Shown: positions 11,203 to 22,257 of the stretch, piece by piece
How the letters are laid out: each line of letters opens with the position of its first letter
Numbering within the stretch: position 1 is the stretch's first letter
DNA from: a virus
Length of the DNA stretch: 22,440 nucleotides
Reading direction: 5' to 3' (one strand)
Virus record (IMG/VR): IMGVR_UViG_3300021093_000391
Coordinates: 1 to 22,440 of that record
The notes under the pieces: generated by a model
The model's input: only the letters and a program-made list of their open reading frames with translations
Database searches by the model: none
Told to the model about the DNA's origin: nothing
Program-made: the position numbers and the translations under genes

Positions 11203-11211
11203 ATTATATCA
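11203..11211 (-). promoter_or_regulatory. Extended -10 promoter overlapping the nrdJ stop codon (TGATATAAT)
   Basis: On the minus strand the nrdJ stop codon TGA supplies the TG of TGATATAAT, and 9 nt separate the -10 from the ATG at 11193. AGGG lies 4 nt before the ATG and may act as a short ribosome-binding site. The transcript leader would be 1-3 nt. No -35 is seen. Confidence 0.45.
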
Positions 11212-13242
11212 GGAACCAGTTTTAATTTCACAATAATCTGTTGTACAGTACATTTCTCCAACAGAATCTAAATTTTGTACCCCATCATAAATTGCTGACC
11301 AATCAATTTTTGCAATTTTGCCAACATAATCGTCATATTCTTGTTGAGAAATCTGTTGATATGGTTGCTGAGGATATATCATATTGCCCATTGGAAGAAA
11401 CGAAACAGCCTTTAACTGCCCCTCATACATATGTAGTGCTGGAGCAATATGTTTAGTTTCTGACTCTTTGTCAAATGATAATGTTACAGAAACGCCATTA
11501 TCAGACCAATACTTTTGTGTTGTTGCAGCAAGACCAATCTTTTCAAACAAAGTTACATCTTTTTCTGATCTTGGATGACCAGAATGAACTGGGAAATAAA
11601 CAACTGTTGTGTTGGCAGAAACTAAATCTTCTTCGATTTTATATCCCGCTGCTTTAAATAAATGAATCATTGGATCTTGATCACTAAATCTAATTGCACG
11701 AAGGAAATATTCTCCCCCTACTGGCCAATGAACTCCTGGAGATGCTCCTGAAAGAAGTGATACTGAACCAGAAGGCTTTACCGTTGTTACACGAATTGAC
11801 TCACGAACACACAACCATTCTGAATATTGTTTATCGTATTTACGAATTGTTTGATATCCTTCATCCATCCAATCACGAGTTGCTGGAAGGCCATGCGTAT
11901 CAGCAAATGATGCAATACCAGTAAGTGATGTACCAATACGGCGATTTCGTTGCATAATACCATTTGTAATTTGCCAATGTGTAGGAACAAGCGTTACAGT
12001 TTTACCATACAAATAAGCAAACTTTAATGTACGCAAAAAGTCTTCTTTGCTGTCGTGACGATTAAGGTGTACTTCTACAAGAGTACAAAGTTCATAGGAC
12101 TCTAATGGCTGCTCAGCACATGGATTAAAACCCATAACTCTATAATCTTTACTATCTGCTGGATCTGCAAGACGACCAAAATTACGAGCAACATCAAGCC
12201 AAATAAATCCTGGCTCTCCATTGTTAGAAATTAAATCTACATAATCTTCATATTTTGTTCCTATGTTTGCTGAAATAGAATTATTACTCATCCATGCCCA
12301 GCCTGGACTGTCTGAATCAAACGAATTTCTTTCTGGAAATACTTCTGAATTTTTTAAATTAATAAAATTATTATCTCCTGCAGAGCCTAATGCCAAAGTT
12401 GCAGAGCGTCTAACATTACCAGAAACAACACAGGTTCCAATAAGATTAACAATATCTACAATAGCCCTTGAATCAAGTGTCTCACCGACCCTAGAACCGA
12501 TTACTTTACGAAGTCTGTTGTGAAGGTCAATCAATGGCTGTGGACCGCTTGAAACGCCTCCAAAGCCTTTAATTGGTGCTCCTGCGGGACGTATCAAGGA
12601 GTAATCAAACTCTTGAATGTTTTGATTTTGTCTTAACATAGAATTAAGCAATATTCTTGTTGATTCTACCCATCCTTCACGAGTATCTGGAATTTGATAA
12701 ATTACGATAGGCTCAGTTGGTGCATAAATTGGCATTTCTTTATCTTGACCAACAGTATCAAACCCAACACCAACACCTAACATTAATGCATCCATAACCC
12801 AAGCAAAAAGCGCACCTGGATCGTTTCTATCAATATCACGAGTAGATACCATTGCACAATTTTGAAGAGCAGCAGAGTTTCGTTTCTCCATAGTCATTGG
12901 AGTTCCAAATGCCCATAGGCCTCTTCCTGGTGGAGTCCATTTTAAATTAAACATACGATCAAACGCTTCTTGTGCTGATTTTTGTGCTTTATAATCATTC
13001 CAAGGCAGTCTGTTTTCCTTTGCGTGATTCTTTTGTACGGAATACATGCCTTCGATTACTCTTTTGCAAACCTCATGCCATCTTTCCTTAGTTCCGTCTT
13101 CTTTAACGCGGGAGTAAGTACGAATAAAAGTAATCTCTCCTAACGAGTTAAGCCCAGCATCCTTGAAGCCAAACGGAGGCTCTATTTCTGCATATTTTGT
13201 AACAAAGTCATCGGAAAGTCGAAAAGAAAAAACATCTGACAT
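11209..13242 (-). CDS. nrdJ: Adenosylcobalamin-dependent (class II) ribonucleoside-triphosphate reductase
   Basis: A 677-aa enzyme that reduces ribonucleotides to deoxyribonucleotides using a thiyl radical generated from coenzyme B12, supplying dNTPs for phage DNA synthesis. The residues known from the Lactobacillus leichmannii monomeric enzyme are all present. C129 (in ALQNCAMVS) and C386 (in ELCTLVEV) are the active-site disulfide pair. C375 in FNPCAEQPLESYE is the thiyl cysteine, with N373 and E377 as partners. The C-terminal shuttle pair C666/C671 has the expected CX4C spacing. The 11-residue step from C375 to C386 matches the 408-to-419 step of the reference. PPGRGLWAFGTP and TVKPSGSVSLLSGASPG are further family signatures. 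The gene looks intact and has its own promoter and AGGAG ribosome-binding site. No cobalamin riboswitch fits the short upstream gap. Confidence 0.95.
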   Translation of the reverse strand: MSDVFSFRLSDDFVTKYAEIEPPFGFKDAGLNSLGEITFIRTYSRVKEDGTKERWHEVCKRVIEGMYSVQKNHAKENRLPWNDYKAQKSAQEAFDRMFNLKWTPPGRGLWAFGTPMTMEKRNSAALQNCAMVSTRDIDRNDPGALFAWVMDALMLGVGVGFDTVGQDKEMPIYAPTEPIVIYQIPDTREGWVESTRILLNSMLRQNQNIQEFDYSLIRPAGAPIKGFGGVSSGPQPLIDLHNRLRKVIGSRVGETLDSRAIVDIVNLIGTCVVSGNVRRSATLALGSAGDNNFINLKNSEVFPERNSFDSDSPGWAWMSNNSISANIGTKYEDYVDLISNNGEPGFIWLDVARNFGRLADPADSKDYRVMGFNPCAEQPLESYELCTLVEVHLNRHDSKEDFLRTLKFAYLYGKTVTLVPTHWQITNGIMQRNRRIGTSLTGIASFADTHGLPATRDWMDEGYQTIRKYDKQYSEWLCVRESIRVTTVKPSGSVSLLSGASPGVHWPVGGEYFLRAIRFSDQDPMIHLFKAAGYKIEEDLVSANTTVVYFPVHSGHPRSEKDVTLFEKIGLAATTQKYWSDNGVSVTLSFDKESETKHIAPALHMYEGQLKAVSFLPMGNMIYPQQPYQQISQQEYDDYVGKIAKIDWSAIYDGVQNLDSVGEMYCTTDYCEIKTGS

Positions 13243-13837: not shown

Positions 13838-14539
13838 CTACATCATACTAGATTTATTGAATTCCATATTGTTATGAATCCAATGTCCTGGAACCATGTA
13901 TTTTACACCACTTTTAACTAAGTGTGCTGTGTGATGATATGGTGCTGACGAAGGAAATATAATAATACTTCCTTTTGTTGGTTTAACTCCAAAATCAATT
14001 GTTTTATCCTGAAATGCTTTTTCATAATCTAAATCTGGATTTTGTTTTTGCAAAATACCATCATAATCAGACATAGTAAAAGATATTTCTCCACCTTCAC
14101 AGTCATCATTTAAATACATAACTAAAGAATATCTCAATGTTTTATCACCATCTAGTTGATCAAAATGTGGTCCCATTCCCATTCCAGTATTATATATTTT
14201 TATATTAAATGATGGAAATAAATTTGGTTCATCATAATCGTTTTGACTTACGGCATAATCTTTACAAACATCATATAAAGATTTTGTAATTAAATCATAA
14301 ATAAATTGCATTTTTTCTTTATATGGATCTTCCATATTATTAATTGATGCCAAATCAAATGATTTTGTTTTTCCATAAATAAAATCTTTGTTGTTTGAAG
14401 AAGTCCAAACATCCCATGATTCTTTATTGTTGTTTTTATCCAGTTCTTCTATTTCTGCAAGAGTTGACATAAGTTTATCTAAGTTTTCAATTGCATCTTC
14501 ATAATAATAAACCTTTTCTTCTAAAATATGCTTCTTCAT
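13838..14539 (-). CDS. 2OG-Fe(II) oxygenase, prolyl-4-hydroxylase type (copy 6)
   Basis: A 233-aa dioxygenase expected to use O2, 2-oxoglutarate and Fe(II) to hydroxylate a substrate that is not known. The iron ligands are H125-F-D127 in GMGPHFDQLDGD and H203 in PYHHTAHLVKSGVKY, with K213 ten residues on as the 2OG-binding base. The signature YLNDDCEGGEISF (142-154) matches the five sister genes. It differs from them by an insert at about 155-180 (MSDYDGILQKQNPDLDYEKA) between the strands of the double-stranded beta-helix. The start overlaps the upstream stop by 4 nt, with AGGAG 8 nt upstream. The exact choice of H203 over H202 or H206 rests on the +10 spacing. Confidence 0.85.
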   Translation of the reverse strand: MKKHILEEKVYYYEDAIENLDKLMSTLAEIEELDKNNNKESWDVWTSSNNKDFIYGKTKSFDLASINNMEDPYKEKMQFIYDLITKSLYDVCKDYAVSQNDYDEPNLFPSFNIKIYNTGMGMGPHFDQLDGDKTLRYSLVMYLNDDCEGGEISFTMSDYDGILQKQNPDLDYEKAFQDKTIDFGVKPTKGSIIIFPSSAPYHHTAHLVKSGVKYMVPGHWIHNNMEFNKSSMM

Positions 14540-15288
14540 TTGTCTAACTCCTCAATTCTATACTTATTTCCTTTTTGGTCTAACTTGTAACCTTCTTTAA
14601 TCATATCTTGCCATTCTGCTTTTTCTTTTGCTTGATATTCTCTAACCTTTTTGATTTCTTCTTCCCACTGTTTTCTTAACTCTTCTGGATAATCTGACTC
14701 TTCTCTGTCATCCCAAAAAGACCCTAAAGTATATCTAACACCTTTTGTGATAAGAGTAACCTCATGCATATTTTCAAAACCTCCAGCAAACGCAGCCAAA
14801 AGACCAGTTTTTGGTTTTACAGAAATATTATTCTTTGTAAAATTTAATACACCACCATCAAAATCTTCATTTAAATAAATGAAAGCAGCATATCTACTTC
14901 TTTCAAATGCTGATGGATTTCCTTGTTCATCAGTGTTGTCTGAATGTGCTCTTGCAAAAGCACCTGGCTCCCATTTTTGTGTATGATATCCAATTTGAAC
15001 AACAGATTGTGGATCTATGTCTTCAATTGAGGCGACTGCTTCTATAATTTTATTTTTTACATCTGAAAAAAACGTTGGTGATAATCCAAACTCTTCTAGC
15101 GCTGGATCATTATCTTGAGGCAAAACAGATGAATATGATTCATAAAAAGAAATTGGTGTCCAAGATATTGTATTATTTTCAACTGTTTTTTCTAAAACTT
15201 TAATAACCGCAGCAGATTCCTCTTCTGTTAAAAAATTTTTATATACAACTATATCTTTTGACAGTCTTTCTTTGTTATCTAAATTCAT
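14536..15288 (-). CDS. 2OG-Fe(II) oxygenase, prolyl-4-hydroxylase type (copy 5)
   Basis: A 250-aa dioxygenase. Iron ligands H115-S-D117 (FARAHSDNTDEQ) and H175 (ENMHEVTLITKGVRY) with R185 at +10. The common signature appears as YLNEDFDGGVLNF, with Val replacing the usual Glu after GG, the only such change among the six. The last 55 residues are a charged Lys/Glu-rich helix (PEELRKQWEEEIKKVREYQA and on) that the sisters lack and that may mediate oligomerisation or partner binding. It overlaps its neighbours by 4 nt on both sides, so it is co-translated within the second oxygenase operon. The substrate is unknown. Confidence 0.87.
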   Translation of the reverse strand: MNLDNKERLSKDIVVYKNFLTEEESAAVIKVLEKTVENNTISWTPISFYESYSSVLPQDNDPALEEFGLSPTFFSDVKNKIIEAVASIEDIDPQSVVQIGYHTQKWEPGAFARAHSDNTDEQGNPSAFERSRYAAFIYLNEDFDGGVLNFTKNNISVKPKTGLLAAFAGGFENMHEVTLITKGVRYTLGSFWDDREESDYPEELRKQWEEEIKKVREYQAKEKAEWQDMIKEGYKLDQKGNKYRIEELDK

Positions 15289-16160
15289 TTTATTCTTACC
15301 CCATCTATAACTTTATTTTTTTGTGGATTTTTTTGTCTAAACTCTTCCATTATATCATCCTGCATTGATGCCCAAACATCTTTTCCAAACTTTGTTTCAT
15401 TTTCAAACCACTCATTATCTCCCTCTTCATATTTTACTAAATACATTCTAGAAAGATACTTATGTCCATTTTTTGCAGGAAGAACTCCATGCAAATATAC
15501 ATCTCCATCTTTTCTTAAAACATCTGGATGACCAGATGGGAAAACTAATATATCGCCAATTTCTGGTTTATACATATATAGTTCTTTTCCTATTGCAAAA
15601 TCAATTTCTCCACCATCGTAGTCATCATTAAAATATGTAAGAACGGTTATTGCAAACTTATAACCTGGACTTACAATAGGCTCTCTAATAAAATCAGAAT
15701 GATATGACATAGCCAGAGGAATATCTAAAATAACTTTAGAATAGTCATGATATCTTACAATTGATGGACCATACAACTTCCACCTTGGAACAGTTTGGCC
15801 ATGCATATCAACAACAGTTTCATTAAAATCAACATTAACGCCAGTGCGTGATATGTAATCTTTTATAACAAAATTAAAGTTATTAATTAATTCTACAACA
15901 ACAGTTTTTTGATTATTTTCTTTTTCTGTTGACACATTTACATTATCAAGAAATTCAACATTAAGACTTGAATCTAATAAAGTTGGATTTAAATACTCTC
16001 CAAACCTTGACCATTGTGACCAGTAATTAAAAAATCTATCTGGATCTTCATTAGTAGATTCTTTTAATGCTTCATAATTTTTATTTGCATCTTTAAATAA
16101 ATTTTTATAAACAATAATGTTTGGATACAATTCAATTAAATCTTTATATAATTCTGTCAT
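15285..16160 (-). CDS. 2OG-Fe(II) oxygenase, prolyl-4-hydroxylase type (copy 4)
   Basis: At 291 aa it is the longest of the six. Iron ligands H154-S-D156 (MSYHSDFIRE) and H224 (VYLHGVLPAKNGHKY) with K234 at +10. The signature is YFNDDYDGGEIDF, followed by YKPEIGDILVFPSGHPDVL. Residues 110-150 (VDMHGQTVPRWKLYGPSIVR and on) add a segment before the first ligand. The C-terminal 50 residues are charged (DDIMEEFRQKNPQKNK). Overlaps of 4 nt (ATGA) join it to both neighbours. The broad shape resembles phage P4Hc-like proteins. The substrate could be protein, nucleotide or lipid; nothing in the sequence decides. Confidence 0.87.
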   Translation of the reverse strand: MTELYKDLIELYPNIIVYKNLFKDANKNYEALKESTNEDPDRFFNYWSQWSRFGEYLNPTLLDSSLNVEFLDNVNVSTEKENNQKTVVVELINNFNFVIKDYISRTGVNVDFNETVVDMHGQTVPRWKLYGPSIVRYHDYSKVILDIPLAMSYHSDFIREPIVSPGYKFAITVLTYFNDDYDGGEIDFAIGKELYMYKPEIGDILVFPSGHPDVLRKDGDVYLHGVLPAKNGHKYLSRMYLVKYEEGDNEWFENETKFGKDVWASMQDDIMEEFRQKNPQKNKVIDGVRIK

Positions 16161-16825
16161 GGCTTTTTATCTCCAGTATGCTCTAGAATTGTCCAAAAAA
16201 ACGGACAGGTATACCTAATTCCTTCTTCGACCTTTGTTACTCCATGTATATAATTTTTATCTCCTGGGAAAAAATAAGCAGCACCCCTTTTTGGTTTAAT
16301 TTGAATATCTTGTAATGGAAAATATAATTCTCCCCCAACATAGTCGTCATTTAAATAAAATAAACTAGCAATATCATAATGTGGAAAATCATTTGGTTTT
16401 CCAGCATCTGGCCCATCATGTAGTTCTTTATCTGCATGTGGGTGTTGGAATTGTCCTGGAAGCCATTTTACAATAGCCTTGCCTGTTGGTTCAATAACTA
16501 CATTAAAAAATTTTTCAATTTCAATTTTTAATCTTTGAAATAAATTTTCTAATATGATAGAAATTTGTGGATCATTTTTATCTAATGTTGGTCCAGTTGC
16601 AACACGGTCTTTCCAGTAGTCTGCATCATAAATTACAGTACCGTTTTCATTTTTATGTGTTTCTGTAATGTCCCAAATTTTTATAGATTTTGCTGCACTT
16701 TCAAGATATTCAATTTCTTCTGTAGTCATAAAATTTTCTAATTCAACAATCATAGATTTATCGTGTCCAAAAAATCCTGATGGAGTTATTGATTGTTTTT
16801 TAAATGGGTTAGTATTATTAATCAT
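16157..16825 (-). CDS. 2OG-Fe(II) oxygenase, prolyl-4-hydroxylase type (copy 3)
   Basis: A 222-aa dioxygenase, first gene of the second oxygenase operon. Iron ligands H130-A-D132 (FQHPHADKELHD) and H194 (NYIHGVTKVEEGIRY) with R204 at +10. Signature YLNDDYVGGELYF, then IKPKRGAAYFFPGDKNY. The segment between D132 and the signature carries a loop (GPDAGKPNDFPHYD) that may line the active site. No ribosome-binding site precedes the ATG. Instead an extended -10 ends 6 nt upstream, so a leaderless transcript is likely. The start is supported by that spacing and by the N-terminus not being conserved with its sisters. Confidence 0.87.
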   Translation of the reverse strand: MINNTNPFKKQSITPSGFFGHDKSMIVELENFMTTEEIEYLESAAKSIKIWDITETHKNENGTVIYDADYWKDRVATGPTLDKNDPQISIILENLFQRLKIEIEKFFNVVIEPTGKAIVKWLPGQFQHPHADKELHDGPDAGKPNDFPHYDIASLFYLNDDYVGGELYFPLQDIQIKPKRGAAYFFPGDKNYIHGVTKVEEGIRYTCPFFWTILEHTGDKKP

Positions 16826-16831
16826 ATTTTA

Positions 16832-16840
16832 ATTATACCA
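16832..16840 (-). promoter_or_regulatory. Extended -10 promoter of second oxygenase operon (TGGTATAAT)
   Basis: TGGTATAAT on the minus strand in the 20-nt gap after the gene ending at 16846, with 6 nt between the -10 and the ATG at 16825. Only TAAAAT separates them, with no Shine-Dalgarno match, making it the clearest leaderless candidate. It should drive 16825 to 13356. Confidence 0.5.
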
Positions 16841-16845
16841 TTTCT

Positions 16846-17580
16846 TTACTCATAAGTTCTTGGCTCCCATACATTTTTTTTATAAACTCCACCGTCTGGA
16901 ACTCTATAAATTTTAGCATTTTTTTGATACTCTTTTTTTATTTTATTTTGATCTGGCTCTTCAAGTATTTCTGAAATCCAATTTTCTCTTTTAAAAGGAA
17001 TTAACTGAATGTATGATGTTCCTGCTGGTATAATACCTGTAAATCCTTTTCGTATAAAAAATGGATATGATCCTGGTAAATGCACTTTATCTAAATCAAT
17101 AATGCCACTTGTAGTTAAAAATGGTAATTCATATCTATTAAATGGTGGTGCATAAATTGCACTATATCCGCCTGGAAGGATAATTTCCCAATCTCCAAAC
17201 CAAGAAAAATGATCTTCATAATACCCCTCTGGATGCATAAACTGTGGCATAGAAGGTCTTTTTTCTACAAATGATGCATATTTTGAGTTGTGAACTTTTA
17301 CATCAATTTTATTATCTTTGTTTAAAAAAAATTCAATATCGCATGGGGTATTTAAAGAATATCCAGTAGCCATAATGTCAAATATTGCTGGACATGCTTT
17401 CCAGGTTGGAATTTTTCCTTTATCTGGACCAATAATAAAATCATTATTAAAATCTTTTGCATATCTATCTGCTTTTCTATACCAGTCTGGTATTGATTTA
17501 GCAATTGGTTTTGGCACAGACTTACTTTCTGATGATAGCCATGCTCTTGCAGCCTTAAAAATAATTTTATGTTTGTCCAT
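16846..17580 (-). CDS. DUF6065-like protein of unknown function (copy B)
   Basis: About 244 aa. I start it at ATG 17580 because AAAGGG lies a few bases upstream; an in-frame ATG at 17601 has no ribosome-binding site and overlaps the previous gene more. Residues 60-90 (TWKACPAIFDIMATGYSLNT, then CDIEFFLNKD) and 152-201 (PFLTTSGIIDLDKVHLPGSY, then IIPAGTSYIQLIPFKRENW) parallel blocks in the preceding gene, so the two are diverged paralogues. The sequence is rich in Trp, Tyr and Pro, with many strands and no HxD motif, signal peptide or membrane segment. It resembles what I recall of the DUF6065 family; this naming is uncertain. It is co-transcribed with two oxygenases and may be a partner or substrate-side protein. 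Confidence 0.65.
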   Translation of the reverse strand: MDKHKIIFKAARAWLSSESKSVPKPIAKSIPDWYRKADRYAKDFNNDFIIGPDKGKIPTWKACPAIFDIMATGYSLNTPCDIEFFLNKDNKIDVKVHNSKYASFVEKRPSMPQFMHPEGYYEDHFSWFGDWEIILPGGYSAIYAPPFNRYELPFLTTSGIIDLDKVHLPGSYPFFIRKGFTGIIPAGTSYIQLIPFKRENWISEILEEPDQNKIKKEYQKNAKIYRVPDGGVYKKNVWEPRTYE

Positions 17581-18289
17581 TATTACCCTTTGTATAATCA
17601 TTAAAACTTAATTTTAAACTTTTAACTTCATGGTCTCCAAGTTTATTGCCATTATGATCGACACCATCTCTGTAAAAGTTAGTCCACTTATCTGTCATTA
17701 TTTTTTCTTGTGATGACATCCCATAATCTTGTAAAAATTTATAATGATCTTGGCCAAATTGTGCATCATATAAATTAACAGATACATCTTGCAAATCTTT
17801 TAATGAAATAGGAATAATAGATGCAATTGGGGTGTTTGCTGGTATAGTAATTTCTTTATTAGCCAAAGTTACTCTCCATGCCGCTGGGATTGGTGCCTTT
17901 AATATTGATGGATTGATAATTGTTGTAAAACAATTTGTACCTTCAATAAATTGATTTGGAACTGGCATTAACATTATGCTTATATCACTATCTGATCTTA
18001 AATATAAATTAGTATCAAAACTTATAGTAGCATTTGCTCTATTTAAATTGACAAATTTATTGCCATTGATAATTTTAATATGGTCAGAAAATGTATCTGA
18101 AACTCCATCCCAAATAAACGTAATGTCTTCTGGAAATGAAAAAGTCCATCCAATTAAATTGGCAGAAGAAACTGGAAAACATCTATATGCATGCTTTCCG
18201 TCTGTATTTTCCATCCACTCTCTTTTCATTGTCAACGGATGAAAATTAATCAATGATCCTTTTTCTTTATAAAAATCTAAAGTAACCAC
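17567..18289 (-). CDS. DUF6065-like protein of unknown function (copy A)
   Basis: A 240-aa protein with a GTG start that overlaps the upstream stop by one base (TAGTG) and has GGAG 4 nt upstream, supporting this start. Residues 35-61 (AYRCFPVSSANLIGWTFSFP, then EDITFIWDG) and 119-165 (NCFTTIINPSILKAPIPAAW, then ITIPANTPIASIIPISLKDL) are the blocks shared with copy B. The IPANTPIASIIPI segment suggests a beta-barrel or jelly-roll edge strand. Residues 175-210 are helical and charged. It has no known catalytic motif. Its place in the middle of four overlapping genes with two oxygenases ties its role to theirs, but the role is unknown. Confidence 0.65.
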   Translation of the reverse strand: MVTLDFYKEKGSLINFHPLTMKREWMENTDGKHAYRCFPVSSANLIGWTFSFPEDITFIWDGVSDTFSDHIKIINGNKFVNLNRANATISFDTNLYLRSDSDISIMLMPVPNQFIEGTNCFTTIINPSILKAPIPAAWRVTLANKEITIPANTPIASIIPISLKDLQDVSVNLYDAQFGQDHYKFLQDYGMSSQEKIMTDKWTNFYRDGVDHNGNKLGDHEVKSLKLSFNDYTKGNNGQT

Positions 18290-18978
18290 TAGTCTCCAGT
18301 TTCTTGAAAAAACTTTGGATTATGAAATTTTGAACTGTAGTCAAGCATTGTTACTATAGAATATTTAGTACCAGATGTGACTGGCATGGCTCTATGTGGA
18401 TACATAAAATTAGATGGAAATACAAAAAGATCTCCAGCCTTAGCCTTTATATTTAAATTTTGCAGCCTAAAAGTAAGTTCTCCACCTTCATAATCATCAT
18501 TTGGATAGCCTACTAATGAAACAACACAGTTATATGAAAATCCGTGATCATGATGCTCCATAAAATGTTGTCCTGGACCATACTTAACAAAATTCATTGC
18601 CTCCCAATACTTTAATTCTCCTATATGAAAACTATTGCAATAATGATCAACAACTGGTTTTGACTTATCATAAACATCTTGCCAAAGATTTTGTAACAGT
18701 AATGATTCATTAGACTTGTCGTGCTCAATATCAGTTTTTTTAAATTTAAAGTCTACACAATCTCTGTACTCTGGCATTCTTTGTTGATATCCAACAAGCG
18801 CTTCTCTCCATTGATATCTAGCTGTTTTATCACTAGACACAACTGATTCTAATCTATTTATAATATCAATATCTTTAGTTAAAACATCATGATATACAAA
18901 AATTCCACTACCAAGATCTTCATAAGAAGACCAAGTCTGTCCTGGATAAAAGTGATTTAAATTAGTAACTGGTTCCAT
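18289..18978 (-). CDS. 2OG-Fe(II) oxygenase, prolyl-4-hydroxylase type (copy 2)
   Basis: A 229-aa dioxygenase closely related to copy 1. Iron ligands H142-H-D144 (HFMEHHDHGFSYN) and H195 (FMYPHRAMPVTSGTKY) with K205 at +10. The signature is YPNDDYEGGELTF, then IKAKAGDLFVFPSNF. The region before it, EAMNFVKYGPGQHF, aligns with EAFNFVKYSKDEYF of copy 1, as do DCVDFKFKK and the C-terminal YSIVTMLDY. It overlaps copy 1 by 17 nt and has AAGGAG upstream of the ATG. The two genes look like a tandem duplication that then diverged. Confidence 0.9.
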   Translation of the reverse strand: MEPVTNLNHFYPGQTWSSYEDLGSGIFVYHDVLTKDIDIINRLESVVSSDKTARYQWREALVGYQQRMPEYRDCVDFKFKKTDIEHDKSNESLLLQNLWQDVYDKSKPVVDHYCNSFHIGELKYWEAMNFVKYGPGQHFMEHHDHGFSYNCVVSLVGYPNDDYEGGELTFRLQNLNIKAKAGDLFVFPSNFMYPHRAMPVTSGTKYSIVTMLDYSSKFHNPKFFQETGD

Positions 18979-19663
18979 TATTCTCCTTGTGATTGTTATC
19001 GTTATAATCTAACATAATTACAACAGAATACTTAATTCCTTCAATAATATTTTTTGATTCATGCTCATAAACAAAATTAGAAGGAAATATTGCAATGTCT
19101 CCTGCTTTTGGCTTAATTGATAAATTATGTCTGGTAAAATCTAATTCCCCGCCATCGTAATTATCATTTAAATATACTACTGCGGATATAGTACACGTGT
19201 AGTAAGGACCATGATCTACATGTGTTTTAAAGTATTCGTCTTTTGAATATTTAACAAAATTAAAAGCCTCTTTATAATTCATTTTTAAATGCCATAAAGA
19301 CTCGTAGTGTTGAAGGCATAGGTCAAGTTGTTTTTCTACAACTTCATGAATATCAAATAAATTTTGATTATACTCTTGATACTTACCTAAATGCTCTCGT
19401 TTATATTTAATATCAAAACAATTTCTAGCATTTAACTTATCTTCAATTGCATTAACTTTTGCACCATGCCATCTTAAAGTATTGTCTTTTTCAACTTCTG
19501 ACTCAAGTGTATTGATAATAAAGTCACACTGTTCTTTTGAAATTGCATTATTATAAAGATGAATTCCATAGTCTAAATTATTAGCAATAATATTGTTACC
19601 AATATTAATTGGCTCAAGCCTGTAATTAATTTTTTCTTCTCTTGGTAAGTTAAACCAGTCCAT
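18962..19663 (-). CDS. 2OG-Fe(II) oxygenase, prolyl-4-hydroxylase type (copy 1)
   Basis: A 233-aa dioxygenase, first gene of the first oxygenase operon. Iron ligands H148-V-D150 (YFKTHVDHGPYY) and H201 (FVYEHESKNIIEGIKY) with K211 at +10, the same spacing as H483 to K493 of human collagen prolyl 4-hydroxylase. Signature YLNDNYDGGELDF, then IKPKAGDIAIFPSNF. The promoter at 19687 and AAGGAG 7 nt before the ATG serve it. It is directly downstream of the fibronectin-III protein with the Phe/Pro tail. A peptidyl-proline substrate is a reasonable hypothesis, but related enzymes also act on other amino acids and small molecules. Confidence 0.9.
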   Translation of the reverse strand: MDWFNLPREEKINYRLEPINIGNNIIANNLDYGIHLYNNAISKEQCDFIINTLESEVEKDNTLRWHGAKVNAIEDKLNARNCFDIKYKREHLGKYQEYNQNLFDIHEVVEKQLDLCLQHYESLWHLKMNYKEAFNFVKYSKDEYFKTHVDHGPYYTCTISAVVYLNDNYDGGELDFTRHNLSIKPKAGDIAIFPSNFVYEHESKNIIEGIKYSVVIMLDYNDNNHKENNGTSY

Positions 19664-19686: not shown

Positions 19687-19695
19687 ATTATAGCA
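19687..19695 (-). promoter_or_regulatory. Extended -10 promoter of first oxygenase operon (TGCTATAAT)
   Basis: TGCTATAAT on the minus strand in the 46-nt gap after the fibronectin-III gene, 23 nt upstream of the ATG at 19663, with a ribosome-binding site in between. It should drive the four overlapping genes down to 16846. Confidence 0.5.
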
Positions 19696-19709
19696 CAACA
19701 AGTTTTGTA

Positions 19710-20528
19710 TTAATCTCTAAAGAATCCAAAGTATGGCGGGAAGAACGGTGGGAAGAACGGTGGGAAGAACGGGAAGAATGGAGGAAAGAATGGAAATGAT
19801 GGCGGGAAGAACGGTGGGAAGAACGGTGGGAAGAACGGGAAGAACGGTGGAAAGAACGGAAAGAATGGTGGAAAGAATGGTTGAGTAGTAACAGAGTTAG
19901 AAGCAGCGCTTTCAGCGGAAGAACCATTAGCATTAATTGCTACAACTTTATAAGTTTGTGATGTTCCTGCTGTTTCATTTACCGTTAATGGTGATGTTGC
20001 ATTAGTATAAGACGGACCATCGCTAGAAATAACAGTAAAACTTGTTATTGATTTTCCACCAGTTGCTGCTGGAGCAGACCAGGTTACAACGTCTTGGTTT
20101 GAATTAGCAGATGAAGCAGATGGTGCTGCTGGTGCGTTTGGAACAGTTGTGGCAGTTACCGAAGAAGAGGTTGTTCCACTAGCAGTTCCTACTGCATTTT
20201 TTGATTTTACTGTAAATGTATAAGATGTATTTGCTGCAAGACCTTCAAATGTGTATGATGTAGATGAAGATCCAGTATCATGTGTATATGTAGAAGGTGT
20301 TGTTGTAATAACATAAGATGTTGCTGCTGGAGATGTTCCTGGTAATGTCCAAGAAAGGCTTACTGCTCCACCAGTTCCAGAAGCAGATGCTGCTGAGGTG
20401 GTATTTGCTGTAGCAAGGTATGGACGATTTGTTCCAACATCTGTTGCACTTAAAGAAGTAACATTTTCTGGTTCTAAAAAGTTGTCTTGTGCTGAAGACT
20501 TAATACCTCTTCTTTTACTAGTTGCCAT
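19710..20528 (-). CDS. Fibronectin-III virion protein with Phe/Pro-only C-terminal tail
   Basis: A 272-aa protein. Residues about 43-128 and 133-215 are two fibronectin type III modules (VSLSWTLPGTSPAATSYVIT, TSYTFTVKSKNAVGTAS; VVTWSAPAATGGKSITSFTV, QTYKVVAINANGSS). Residues 217-269 consist almost wholly of FFPP and FFP units (exceptions S244, Y266, G268), and the protein ends GFFRD. Such modules on phage surfaces are thought to bind carbohydrates weakly. The tail is extremely hydrophobic yet Pro-broken, so it is not a normal membrane helix. It could be an anchoring or aggregation segment, or an enzyme target. The N-terminus has no signal peptide. The ribosome-binding site GGAG and an extended -10 lie upstream. 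The tract is built from 9- and 12-nt repeats. Confidence 0.8.
   Translation of the reverse strand: MATSKRRGIKSSAQDNFLEPENVTSLSATDVGTNRPYLATANTTSAASASGTGGAVSLSWTLPGTSPAATSYVITTTPSTYTHDTGSSSTSYTFEGLAANTSYTFTVKSKNAVGTASGTTSSSVTATTVPNAPAAPSASSANSNQDVVTWSAPAATGGKSITSFTVISSDGPSYTNATSPLTVNETAGTSQTYKVVAINANGSSAESAASNSVTTQPFFPPFFPFFPPFFPFFPPFFPPFFPPSFPFFPPFFPFFPPFFPPFFPPYFGFFRD
19734..19844 (-). repeat. 66-nt tandem duplication in the Phe/Pro tail coding region
   Basis: The 45 nt at 19734-19778 recur exactly at 19800-19844, an offset of 66 nt (22 codons). Inside, the plus strand is purine-rich, built of GGTGGGAAGAAC and GGGAAGAAC units. Each copy has four GGG runs with loops of 9, 9 and 6 nt. The tract continues less regularly to about 19880. 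Confidence 0.85.
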
Positions 20529-20559: not shown

Positions 20560-22257
20560 TTATGCTGATAGGTCGCCCATTACGATCCATGTATCTGTTG
20601 CTCTCTTGAAAAGAGTTGCAGATGAATATTGAGCACGTAATTTCAAACCAGGTGTAGCATTTACAGTTACTCCTGCTGCGCCAGCAACAGTTACCTGTCC
20701 AGCACCAGTTTGAATAATATCAATTGATGTTCCTACTGGATATGCTGTTGTTGAGTTTGCTGGAATTGTTAGTGTAATTGCTGATGATGAACCTAGTTCA
20801 AGCATAGTATCTCTTAATGTTAATCCACCAGTTGATAGATTATAAGATGCTGATGCTGTATTAATTGTAGTTCTTGAAGGTACGCCTTCTTTTGTTTGTG
20901 TACCGTCTGTAAAAGCAATTCCATCTGCTGCTACAGTTACTGTACCAGTAAATGTTGGGGAAGCAAGTGGAGCCTTTGTTGCAATACTATTTGTAACCGT
21001 AGTAGAGAAGTTTGCATCATCACCAAGTGCTTCAGCCAATTCATTAAGAGTGTCTAATGCTCCAGGTGCTGAAGCGATAACATTGTCTACTGCAGTTTTA
21101 ACGAATGCGGTTGTAGCAATTTGAGTTGTATTAGTATTGGCATCAGCGGTAGGTGCTGTTGGTGTGCCAGTTAAGGCTGGTGAGGCAAGAGGCGCATAAG
21201 TTGAAGCGGCAGATGCCGAAGCCAACTTGTCATCAAGTTGTGTTTGAATAGCAGAGGTTACTCCATTTACATATCCAATTTCAGTTGAAGATACGTCACC
21301 TATTGATGTAGTTGAAGGAAGAACAACTGTACCTGTAAAAGTTGGATCTGCAGATGGTGATTTTGCATCAAGTTGTGTTTGAATGGCAGAGGTTACACCA
21401 TTAACATATGAAAGTTCAGTCTCAGATACGTCTCCGATTGAAGTTGTTGAAGGAAGCACTACGTTTCCAGTAAAGGTAGGGCTTGCAGCAGGTGCTTTTG
21501 TATCAATTTGTGTTTGAATTGCAGAAGTAACACCGTTAACATATCCAATTTCTGCTGATGAAACATCACCTATTGATGTAGTAGAAGGAAGTACGACGGT
21601 TCCAGTAAATGTAGGACTTGCAGTAGGTGCCTTCGCAGAAACATCTGTTGTAATATTACTAAATTGTGTTTGAATTGCTGAAGTTACTCCACTAAGATAT
21701 CCAAGTTCTGTTGCAGTTGCTCCAGTATCACTAAGATTTCCAGTTGTTATTACCGTTCCAGTTGCATTCGGTAAAGTAACAAATCTATCAGCAGTTGGAT
21801 CAACAACATTAAGGGTTGTCTCATATGCATCTGCTGTAGATCCTTCAAAAGTAATTGAAGTTGTAAGATTAATTGTTGTTGAATCTACTGTTGTAGTGGT
21901 TCCTTGTACCGTTAAATTACCAGAAACTGTTACGTTACCGCTGCCATCTGCAAGAACTACTGTTCCTGTAGAATTTGGAAGTGTAATTGTACGATCTGCT
22001 GTAGGATCTGCAACTGTAAGTGTTGTTTCGTATGCGTCTGAAGTAGCACCTTCGAAAGTAATGCTTGAACCAAATGCTGGGTTTACTGTGGAGGATTGAT
22101 CAATAAAGTAGTCAAGGTCTGCCCAGTGATTAGTACCATCACCAATCTTAAATTTATTGGTATCAGACTCCCATCCCATTTCACCTGCATTTAAAATAGG
22201 ATTTGCGCTTGTCCATTGGGCTGCAGTGCCTCTCCGTTGCTGCATTCTTGTTGCCAT
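20560..22257 (-). CDS. Tail-fibre-like protein with tandem repeats
   Basis: A 565-aa protein. Residues 1-51 (MQQRRGTAAQWTSANPILNA..., then FKIGDGTNHWADLDYF) are the common N-terminal module of phage fibre proteins that attaches to the virion. Residues 65-112 and 134-175 are two copies of an ITFEGxTxDAYETTL...DPTADR...TLPNxTGTV module. Residues 213-347 are three copies of a 45-residue repeat (SPTFTGTVVLPSTTSIGDVS, then GYVNGVTSAIQTQLDxK), with partial copies on either side. The rest ends in a compact C-terminal domain (LRAQYSSATLFKRATDTWIV). Such repeats form trimeric beta-helical and coiled-coil shafts. It probably carries or extends a receptor-binding tip. AGGAGG precedes the ATG and an extended -10 lies 35 nt upstream. 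Confidence 0.82.
   Translation of the reverse strand: MATRMQQRRGTAAQWTSANPILNAGEMGWESDTNKFKIGDGTNHWADLDYFIDQSSTVNPAFGSSITFEGATSDAYETTLTVADPTADRTITLPNSTGTVVLADGSGNVTVSGNLTVQGTTTTVDSTTINLTTSITFEGSTADAYETTLNVVDPTADRFVTLPNATGTVITTGNLSDTGATATELGYLSGVTSAIQTQFSNITTDVSAKAPTASPTFTGTVVLPSTTSIGDVSSAEIGYVNGVTSAIQTQIDTKAPAASPTFTGNVVLPSTTSIGDVSETELSYVNGVTSAIQTQLDAKSPSADPTFTGTVVLPSTTSIGDVSSTEIGYVNGVTSAIQTQLDDKLASASAASTYAPLASPALTGTPTAPTADANTNTTQIATTAFVKTAVDNVIASAPGALDTLNELAEALGDDANFSTTVTNSIATKAPLASPTFTGTVTVAADGIAFTDGTQTKEGVPSRTTINTASASYNLSTGGLTLRDTMLELGSSSAITLTIPANSTTAYPVGTSIDIIQTGAGQVTVAGAAGVTVNATPGLKLRAQYSSATLFKRATDTWIVMGDLSA
21217..21621 (-). repeat. Three 135-nt repeats in the tail-fibre gene
   Basis: Three in-frame copies of a 45-codon unit (codons 213-257, 258-302, 303-347), each with PTFTGxVVLPSTTSIGDVS and a following (Y/S)VNGVTSAIQTQ(I/L)D segment. 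The DNA has drifted more than the protein, so selection on the repeat is likely. Confidence 0.85.

Follow-up and report, generated by a model that had tools for sequence, protein, structure and literature searches.

The window analysed here is the whole 22,440-bp stretch of an IMG/VR-type virus record (IMGVR_UViG_3300021093_000391), probably a fragment of a virus genome. It carries a cassette of six Fe(II)/2-oxoglutarate (2OG) oxygenase genes, A to F, directly behind the gene for an Fn3 protein with a C-terminal Phe/Pro repeat. Every gene discussed lies on the minus strand. In the order of transcription, an Mtd_N tail-fibre protein and the Fn3-repeat protein are followed by A, B, two DUF6065-type genes, C, D, E and F, and the cassette genes overlap or abut, with a 17-bp overlap between A and B. 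Since the Mtd_N protein adjoins it, the repeat protein belongs to a tail-fibre locus. An earlier, sequence-only reading had placed six intact prolyl 4-hydroxylase (P4H)-type 2OG open reading frames (ORFs) at 13838-19663, and we recover them at the same coordinates and on the minus strand with all ligands in place; the DUF6065-type pair inside the block and the repeat protein directly before it were absent from that reading.

20560..22257, minus strand: tail-fibre or receptor-binding-type protein with an Mtd_N domain (PF18454, 1.1e-12)
19710..20528, minus strand: Fn3 protein with a C-terminal Phe/Pro repeat, the proposed substrate (PF00041, 4e-12)
19713..19880, minus strand: repeat tract PFFPPFFPFFPPFFP..., 56 residues with 23 Pro and 28 Phe, the proposed hydroxylation sites
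18962..19663, minus strand: 2OG oxygenase A, 233 aa, first enzyme of the cassette (PF13640, 47 bits)
18289..18978, minus strand: 2OG oxygenase B, 229 aa (PF13640, 51.6 bits)
17567..18289, minus strand: DUF6065 paralogue 1, 240 aa (PF19541, 87.9 bits)
16846..17601, minus strand: DUF6065 paralogue 2, 251 aa (phrog_7084, 1e-32)
16157..16825, minus strand: 2OG oxygenase C, 222 aa (PF13640, 37.6 bits)
15285..16160, minus strand: 2OG oxygenase D, 291 aa, the most divergent copy (AlphaFold2 model; no Pfam match)
14536..15288, minus strand: 2OG oxygenase E, 250 aa (PF13640, 36.6 bits)
13838..14539, minus strand: 2OG oxygenase F, 233 aa (PF13640, 41.8 bits)
11209-13242, minus strand: class II (B12-dependent) ribonucleotide reductase (RNR), downstream of the cassette

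Six intact oxygenases retained across phages

All six enzymes contain the HxD...H metal triad, with the HxD at residues 148-150, 142-144, 130-132, 154-156, 115-117 and 125-127 and the distal His at H201, H195, H194, H224, H175 and H203 in A to F, respectively. A basic residue, serving the C5 carboxylate of 2OG, follows the distal His at a distance of exactly ten residues in each (K211, K205, R204, K234, R185 and K213). These positions agree exactly with the sequence-only reading, although a Lys or Arg at +10 is usual among P4Hc proteins and is unsurprising alone. In alignments of orthologues (115 for A, 110 for B, 103 for C, 46 for D, 61 for E and 47 for F) the ligands are essentially invariant: the triad is interrupted only by single gaps, and the +10 position shows one Lys-to-Arg change, among the D orthologues. 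This conservation rules out lost iron or 2OG sites, and all six enzymes are apparently active, judging from these residues. The LND(D/N)YxGGE(L/I)xF signature that the copies had been said to share is real but loose, with a core reduced to one Asn, Gly-Gly and one Phe around it.

Five of the enzymes (A, B, C, E and F) pass the 27-bit cut-off of PF13640 (2OG-FeII_Oxy_3) with 36.6-51.6 bits, and their fold is assigned from these profile matches. D gave no match in the Pfam profile scan, and a structure model was made for this copy alone: AlphaFold2, run from 42 sequences, yields a prolyl-hydroxylase-type double-stranded β-helix with a predicted local distance difference test score (pLDDT) of 89.6. 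Its comparison with solved folds gives Z scores of 15.1 for PHD2, 14.4 for P3H1 and 14.4 for the Pseudomonas putida P4H, and a template modelling (TM) score of 0.72, normalised by target length, for vCPH of a chlorella virus. In a search with a profile of all six proteins, the best solved relative is P3H1, a 3-hydroxylase (1.4e-11), followed by BaP4H (1.1e-9), the PBCV-1 P4H (1.2e-9) and CrP4H (3.4e-6), with TET-like enzymes trailing at 3e-4; the superfamily and the prolyl-hydroxylase-type subgroup of the six enzymes are therefore secure.

To place the copies among relatives, we drew on a profile scan of viral contigs that returned at least 569 relatives, from which 80 loci were kept. Loci in the counts below are among the matches listed in the viral scans, and the contigs are fragments; 113 distinct IMG/VR loci are those that remain after loci with identical enzymes were dropped. 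The number of 2OG genes per locus ranges from 2 to 11 and is mostly 5-9, and the order A-B-C-D-E-F recurs across loci. A tree built from 221 sequences of 32 loci places each of A, B and C in a single-copy clade (31 loci, support 0.967; 32 loci, 0.941; and 32 loci, 1.0), E and F in clades of 32 loci (0.988) and 25 loci (0.928), and D in a weakly supported clade (0.558) that covers 28 loci and has extra copies. Each copy thus has its own clade kept across phages, the pattern that the sequence-only reading had proposed to look for, with D the weaker case. Even A and B, the closest pair among the six, share only 40% identity, and the tree, gene order and ligand conservation together rule out a recent within-phage duplication, in keeping with the earlier description of the copies as clearly diverged.

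The set of six is not strict. Where enough downstream sequence was available (41 loci), A and B are present in 41 and C and E in 40, but F is present in 33 and D in 22. Outside the closest relatives, identity to the window copy is typically 60-75% for B and C, 35-70% for E and 41-62% for A. Against close relatives, the ratio of nonsynonymous to synonymous substitution rates is lowest in A, B, C and E (0.04-0.09), higher in F (0.10-0.20) and highest in D (0.24-0.31), so the relaxed selection that had been raised as a counter-sign was not found. The copies are under purifying selection, their orthologues are retained and the gene order is fixed; these comparisons support an ancient divergence of six copies that would be non-redundant.

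A Phe/Pro-repeat gene linked to the cassette

In the repeat tract of the window, Phe is encoded by TTC 21 times and TTT 7 times, and Pro by CCA 12 times, CCG 10 times and CCT once. The variation of synonymous third positions fits selection on the peptide, and an overlapping ORF at 19688-19933 merely reads this tract in a different frame. A chance repeat or a wrong frame is ruled out by this variation and by the absence of a repeat gene from all 120 control loci described below. Across 147 repeat proteins the family takes the form (F/Y/H)FP(P): of the 2788 spacers that separate one Pro run from the next, 2674 have a length of exactly two residues, with a first residue that is mostly Phe, then Tyr, His and Ser, and a second residue that is always Phe, an outcome favoured by our delimiting the repeat region by Phe-Pro. 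Variants such as FPHFPPHFPP (L061) and FPYFPPYFPP (L007) change the aromatic residue and keep the Phe-Pro step, and repeats, with peptides such as PFFPPFFPFFPP, lack Lys and Arg. In L061, where the repeat gene lies about 1.6 kb upstream of B, His replaces the first Phe, and the resulting His/Phe/Pro tail might bind metal.

The repeat was also searched on viral contigs with a degenerate DNA pattern, independently of the 2OG genes, and compared with a control of 120 viral loci found by a random 14-mer. Some contigs were fetched twice; duplicates were removed from the counts of 113 and 76 loci, and not from the 108 loci found by the repeat. Of these 108, 82 contain 2OG genes, at 3.74 per 10 kb, versus 7 of the 120 control loci, at 0.088 per 10 kb, so that the repeat predicts hydroxylase genes about 40-fold over the viral background. 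Among the 26 repeat loci without a nearby 2OG gene, 14 have 6-13 2OG genes elsewhere in the record (control records, 1 of 41). In four others (G002, G009, G013 and G019) the contig stops at the repeat gene, on the side on which the cassette is expected, and most other such loci are short. A same-strand 2OG gene lies downstream of 114 of the 124 distinct repeat ORFs with room for one, within 1 kb in 96.

The reverse search gives the same association. Among loci anchored on B, 76 have 3.5 kb or more of upstream sequence, and all 76 contain a repeat gene, 70 by a strict definition and 6 read directly; in these 6 the Fn3 gene is the same but its repeats are variant or shorter, as in the two variants above or in CPFFPNFCPSFCPFFP. 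A stricter positional count gives 75 of 76, the miss being L051, with its repeat gene about 7.8 kb upstream. Several phages have extra repeat genes far from the cassette, for example at 44.7 kb in G001 and 37 kb in G077. In L131 the repeat is found in a different, 971-aa tail-type protein that also contains a Hint-like domain, and a single 2OG gene follows 6 bp later. A Hint/intein-like domain after the repeat is seen in L026:6648-8012, L028:2791-4128, L131:3566-6481 and L051:1182-2726, on the basis of below-cut-off Pfam matches to Intein_splicing or Hint_2 in the first three and by eye in L051, and suggests self-processing of the modified tail.

When bacterial and archaeal genomes totalling 257 billion bases were searched with the DNA pattern, it matched once, in L194 (JAFMJX010000128.1), a 5.3-kb contig with a repeat gene and four 2OG genes, closely related to the cassette, that was binned in a Chitinophagaceae metagenome-assembled genome and is probably a misbinned phage fragment. 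DNA searches of isolated phages with the block and the repeat found no match, nor did tblastn of the repeat protein against isolated phages, where the BLAST low-complexity filter may hide some. A record from the control set, phage L272 (G067:C1:54406-57411), has four clustered PF13640 genes but neither the Phe/Pro repeat nor DUF6065, so that phages also have 2OG clusters directed at different targets.

Cassette partners, neighbouring genes and host

DUF6065-type proteins, grouped by blastp single linkage, are found in 111 of the 113 loci, 225 in total and typically two between B and C; both paralogues were identified together in 105 loci. PF19541 is present in 20 of 20 long cassette records, yet paralogue 2 of the window does not match it, and only 5 of its 54 aligned relatives do. 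A model of paralogue 2 (pLDDT 92) resembles a remote dUTPase-like (β-clip) fold, with a best Foldseek E-value against dUTPases of 1.1e-3 and a VIA Z score of 10.3. VIA and Foldseek gave no confident enzyme family for DUF6065, and no sequence match of paralogue 2 to solved chains was found up to an E-value of 10. D169, D171 and Q199 are invariant in paralogue 2, and its IIDLD and IQLIP stretches recall what we take to be dUTPase motifs III and IV; an IDxD motif seems to be missing from paralogue 1. In halophage HF1, a gene for a DUF6065-like protein belonging to tailed viruses of haloarchaea (L322:5857-6741) lies near an RNR gene, with no annotated 2OG oxygenase nearby. A literature search found no mention of DUF6065.

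On the 3′ side of F lie, in order, genes for a 158-aa protein, the class II RNR, a 1199-aa structural-looking protein, a portal, a protease and a major head protein, and the Mtd_N tail-fibre family is found upstream of the cassette in 72 of 113 loci. Short-chain dehydrogenase genes (for example, L051:15106-15774) and an 80-aa Cys-rich DUF6171-like protein (for example, L171:6748-6990) occur near the cassette in 26 loci each. The portal of the window is 48% identical to Streptomyces phage portals such as that of Annadreamy, and WhiB genes, which are typical of Actinobacteria and their phages, are present in 8 of 20 long cassette records and in 0 of 31 controls. The source is probably a tailed phage with an actinobacterial host, as these gene similarities indicate; the WhiB genes and the portal make a cyanophage origin, suggested by enzyme similarity alone, unlikely.

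Proposed function and its relatives

We propose, with a probability of roughly 70%, that the block is a dedicated multi-enzyme cassette that hydroxylates the neighbouring virion (F/Y/H)-F-P(-P) repeat. Several non-redundant Fe(II)/2OG peptidyl hydroxylases, with the DUF6065 pair, would act on the repeat tail of the Fn3 protein, co- or post-translationally and before virion assembly, and probably also on comparable repeats that further virion proteins of this phage carry. The paralogues would most likely split positions or chemistries among themselves: the first or second Pro of a Pro-Pro pair, C3 or C4, and possibly Phe. If each copy has its own position or atom, the retention of distinct paralogues is better explained than by redundancy. 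The sequence-only reading had likewise argued for distinct substrates or sites rather than redundancy; the copies do look non-redundant, but six distinct substrates are not borne out. What accompanies the cassette throughout is a single family of repeat proteins, which makes it more likely that the copies differ in the sites or chemistries that they handle on one type of substrate. Hydroxylation could stiffen or solubilise the very hydrophobic Phe/Pro tail or prime it for further modification, with a possible conformational, anti-aggregation or adhesive effect. We propose more tentatively, as less likely than not, a fuller picture of an assembly line in which four to eight paralogues would each perform a different position-specific hydroxylation (Pro C3 or C4, possibly Phe) on a new Phe-Pro repeat class, with DUF6065 pairs as partners, giving a heavily modified adhesive or spring-like virion appendage that in some phages would be Hint-processed.

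Several observations weigh against a functional tie between repeat and enzymes. B orthologues are 52-92% identical pairwise (1st-99th percentile), so most loci fall within a single broad group of phages and the counts are inflated by common ancestry; the linkage could have been inherited vertically within this group rather than being functional. L131 is the sole clearly independent pairing of a repeat with a 2OG gene. Loci with more Phe-Pro units do not have correspondingly more 2OG genes (Spearman 0.12, p 0.53, 32 loci), three records of 25-48 kb (G006, G024 and G026) have the repeat and no 2OG gene, although they may be fragments, and the DUF6065 pair, with its dUTPase-like fold, has no role assigned.

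The true targets might instead lie elsewhere in the virion, for example among collagen-like (Gly-X-Y) proteins of the tail, with the repeat gene merely a lineage-wide neighbour. Collagen is the classical P4H substrate, a study of the Baltic Sea virome ties viral P4H to tail-fibre collagen while calling viral use of prolyl hydroxylases 'cryptic' (PMC9301287), and collagen-like ORFs are found in 16 of the 76 anchored loci. In the remaining 60, however, none is in reach, and none is in the window, whereas the Phe/Pro repeat is in all 76 and, searched alone, still predicts 2OG genes. Collagen, not being constant, is rejected as the common substrate, and we judge this explanation unlikely.

Modification of nucleotides or DNA, in which the 2OG enzymes would hydroxylate a base and the dUTPase-like DUF6065 proteins would handle nucleotides beside the adjoining RNR, draws on the dUTPase-like fold of paralogue 2 with its three invariant residues, on the class II RNR downstream here and in 33 of 113 loci, and on the DUF6065-like gene near an RNR gene in HF1. 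It is very improbable in our estimation: peptidyl-prolyl hydroxylases are the nearest relatives and TET-like enzymes rank far lower, the RNR is inconstant whereas the repeat protein is constant, and it is difficult to see why modifying a base should take six parallel paralogues. Nor do we see more than a very slim chance that the enzymes serve host takeover, with ribosomal proteins, EF-Tu or other proteins of the host hydroxylated in the manner of bacterial P4Hs. Structures of the P. putida and Bacillus anthracis P4Hs include EF-Tu work (4iw3, 5v7y), and PHROGs classes such genes as moron/host takeover; yet the cassette is fixed in a tail-fibre region beside a virion-type gene, and host targets leave its tie to the Phe/Pro repeat unexplained.

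The proposed cassette for hydroxylating the repeat can be set beside known systems. In plant cell walls, Pro-rich repeat proteins are served by a family of P4Hs, and PBCV-1 vCPH is a single enzyme of a eukaryotic virus. The window enzymes resemble vCPH (PDB 5c5t) in ligands and fold, as the profile and TM scores above indicate, but the phage cassette has five to nine paralogues and a DUF6065 pair, next to a gene with the Phe/Pro repeat. According to its title, Eriksson et al. 1999, a reference of PMC9301287, presents evidence that viral proteins contain 4-hydroxyproline. Among human prolyl 3-hydroxylase 1 (P3H1) and the collagen and HIF prolyl hydroxylases, P3H1 is the best profile match and PHD2 and P3H1 are similar to the D model; identity to that model is only about 13-15%, no chaperone, PDI or CRTAP partner was seen, and the putative phage substrate is neither collagen nor HIF. 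Cyanophage 2OG-Fe(II) oxygenases (phrog_61, phrog_81) belong to the same superfamily, A matching 236 phage records, mostly of Synechococcus phages; they differ in having at most about 32% identity and one or two places per listed record. An EGLN3-like fold of phage 2OG enzymes has been noted (PMC12774648). The plant hydroxyproline-rich cell-wall proteins and their P4H paralogues (PMC7960765) offer an analogy, a Pro-rich repeat with a family of P4H paralogues, with no sequence relation; among the genes that recur around the cassette, no family of glycosyltransferases was identified.

Viral P4H and phage 2OG genes are already known. In the searchable literature we found no report of a multi-hydroxylase cassette with a DUF6065 pair and a Phe-Pro repeat partner, or of 2OG enzymes paired with a Phe/Pro repeat in a phage. 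Genes for 2OG oxygenases are common in phages as 'auxiliary metabolic genes', and the cassette described here names a concrete, testable candidate substrate for them. It suggests that a whole group of phages makes a post-translationally modified virion protein by means of several non-redundant enzymes.

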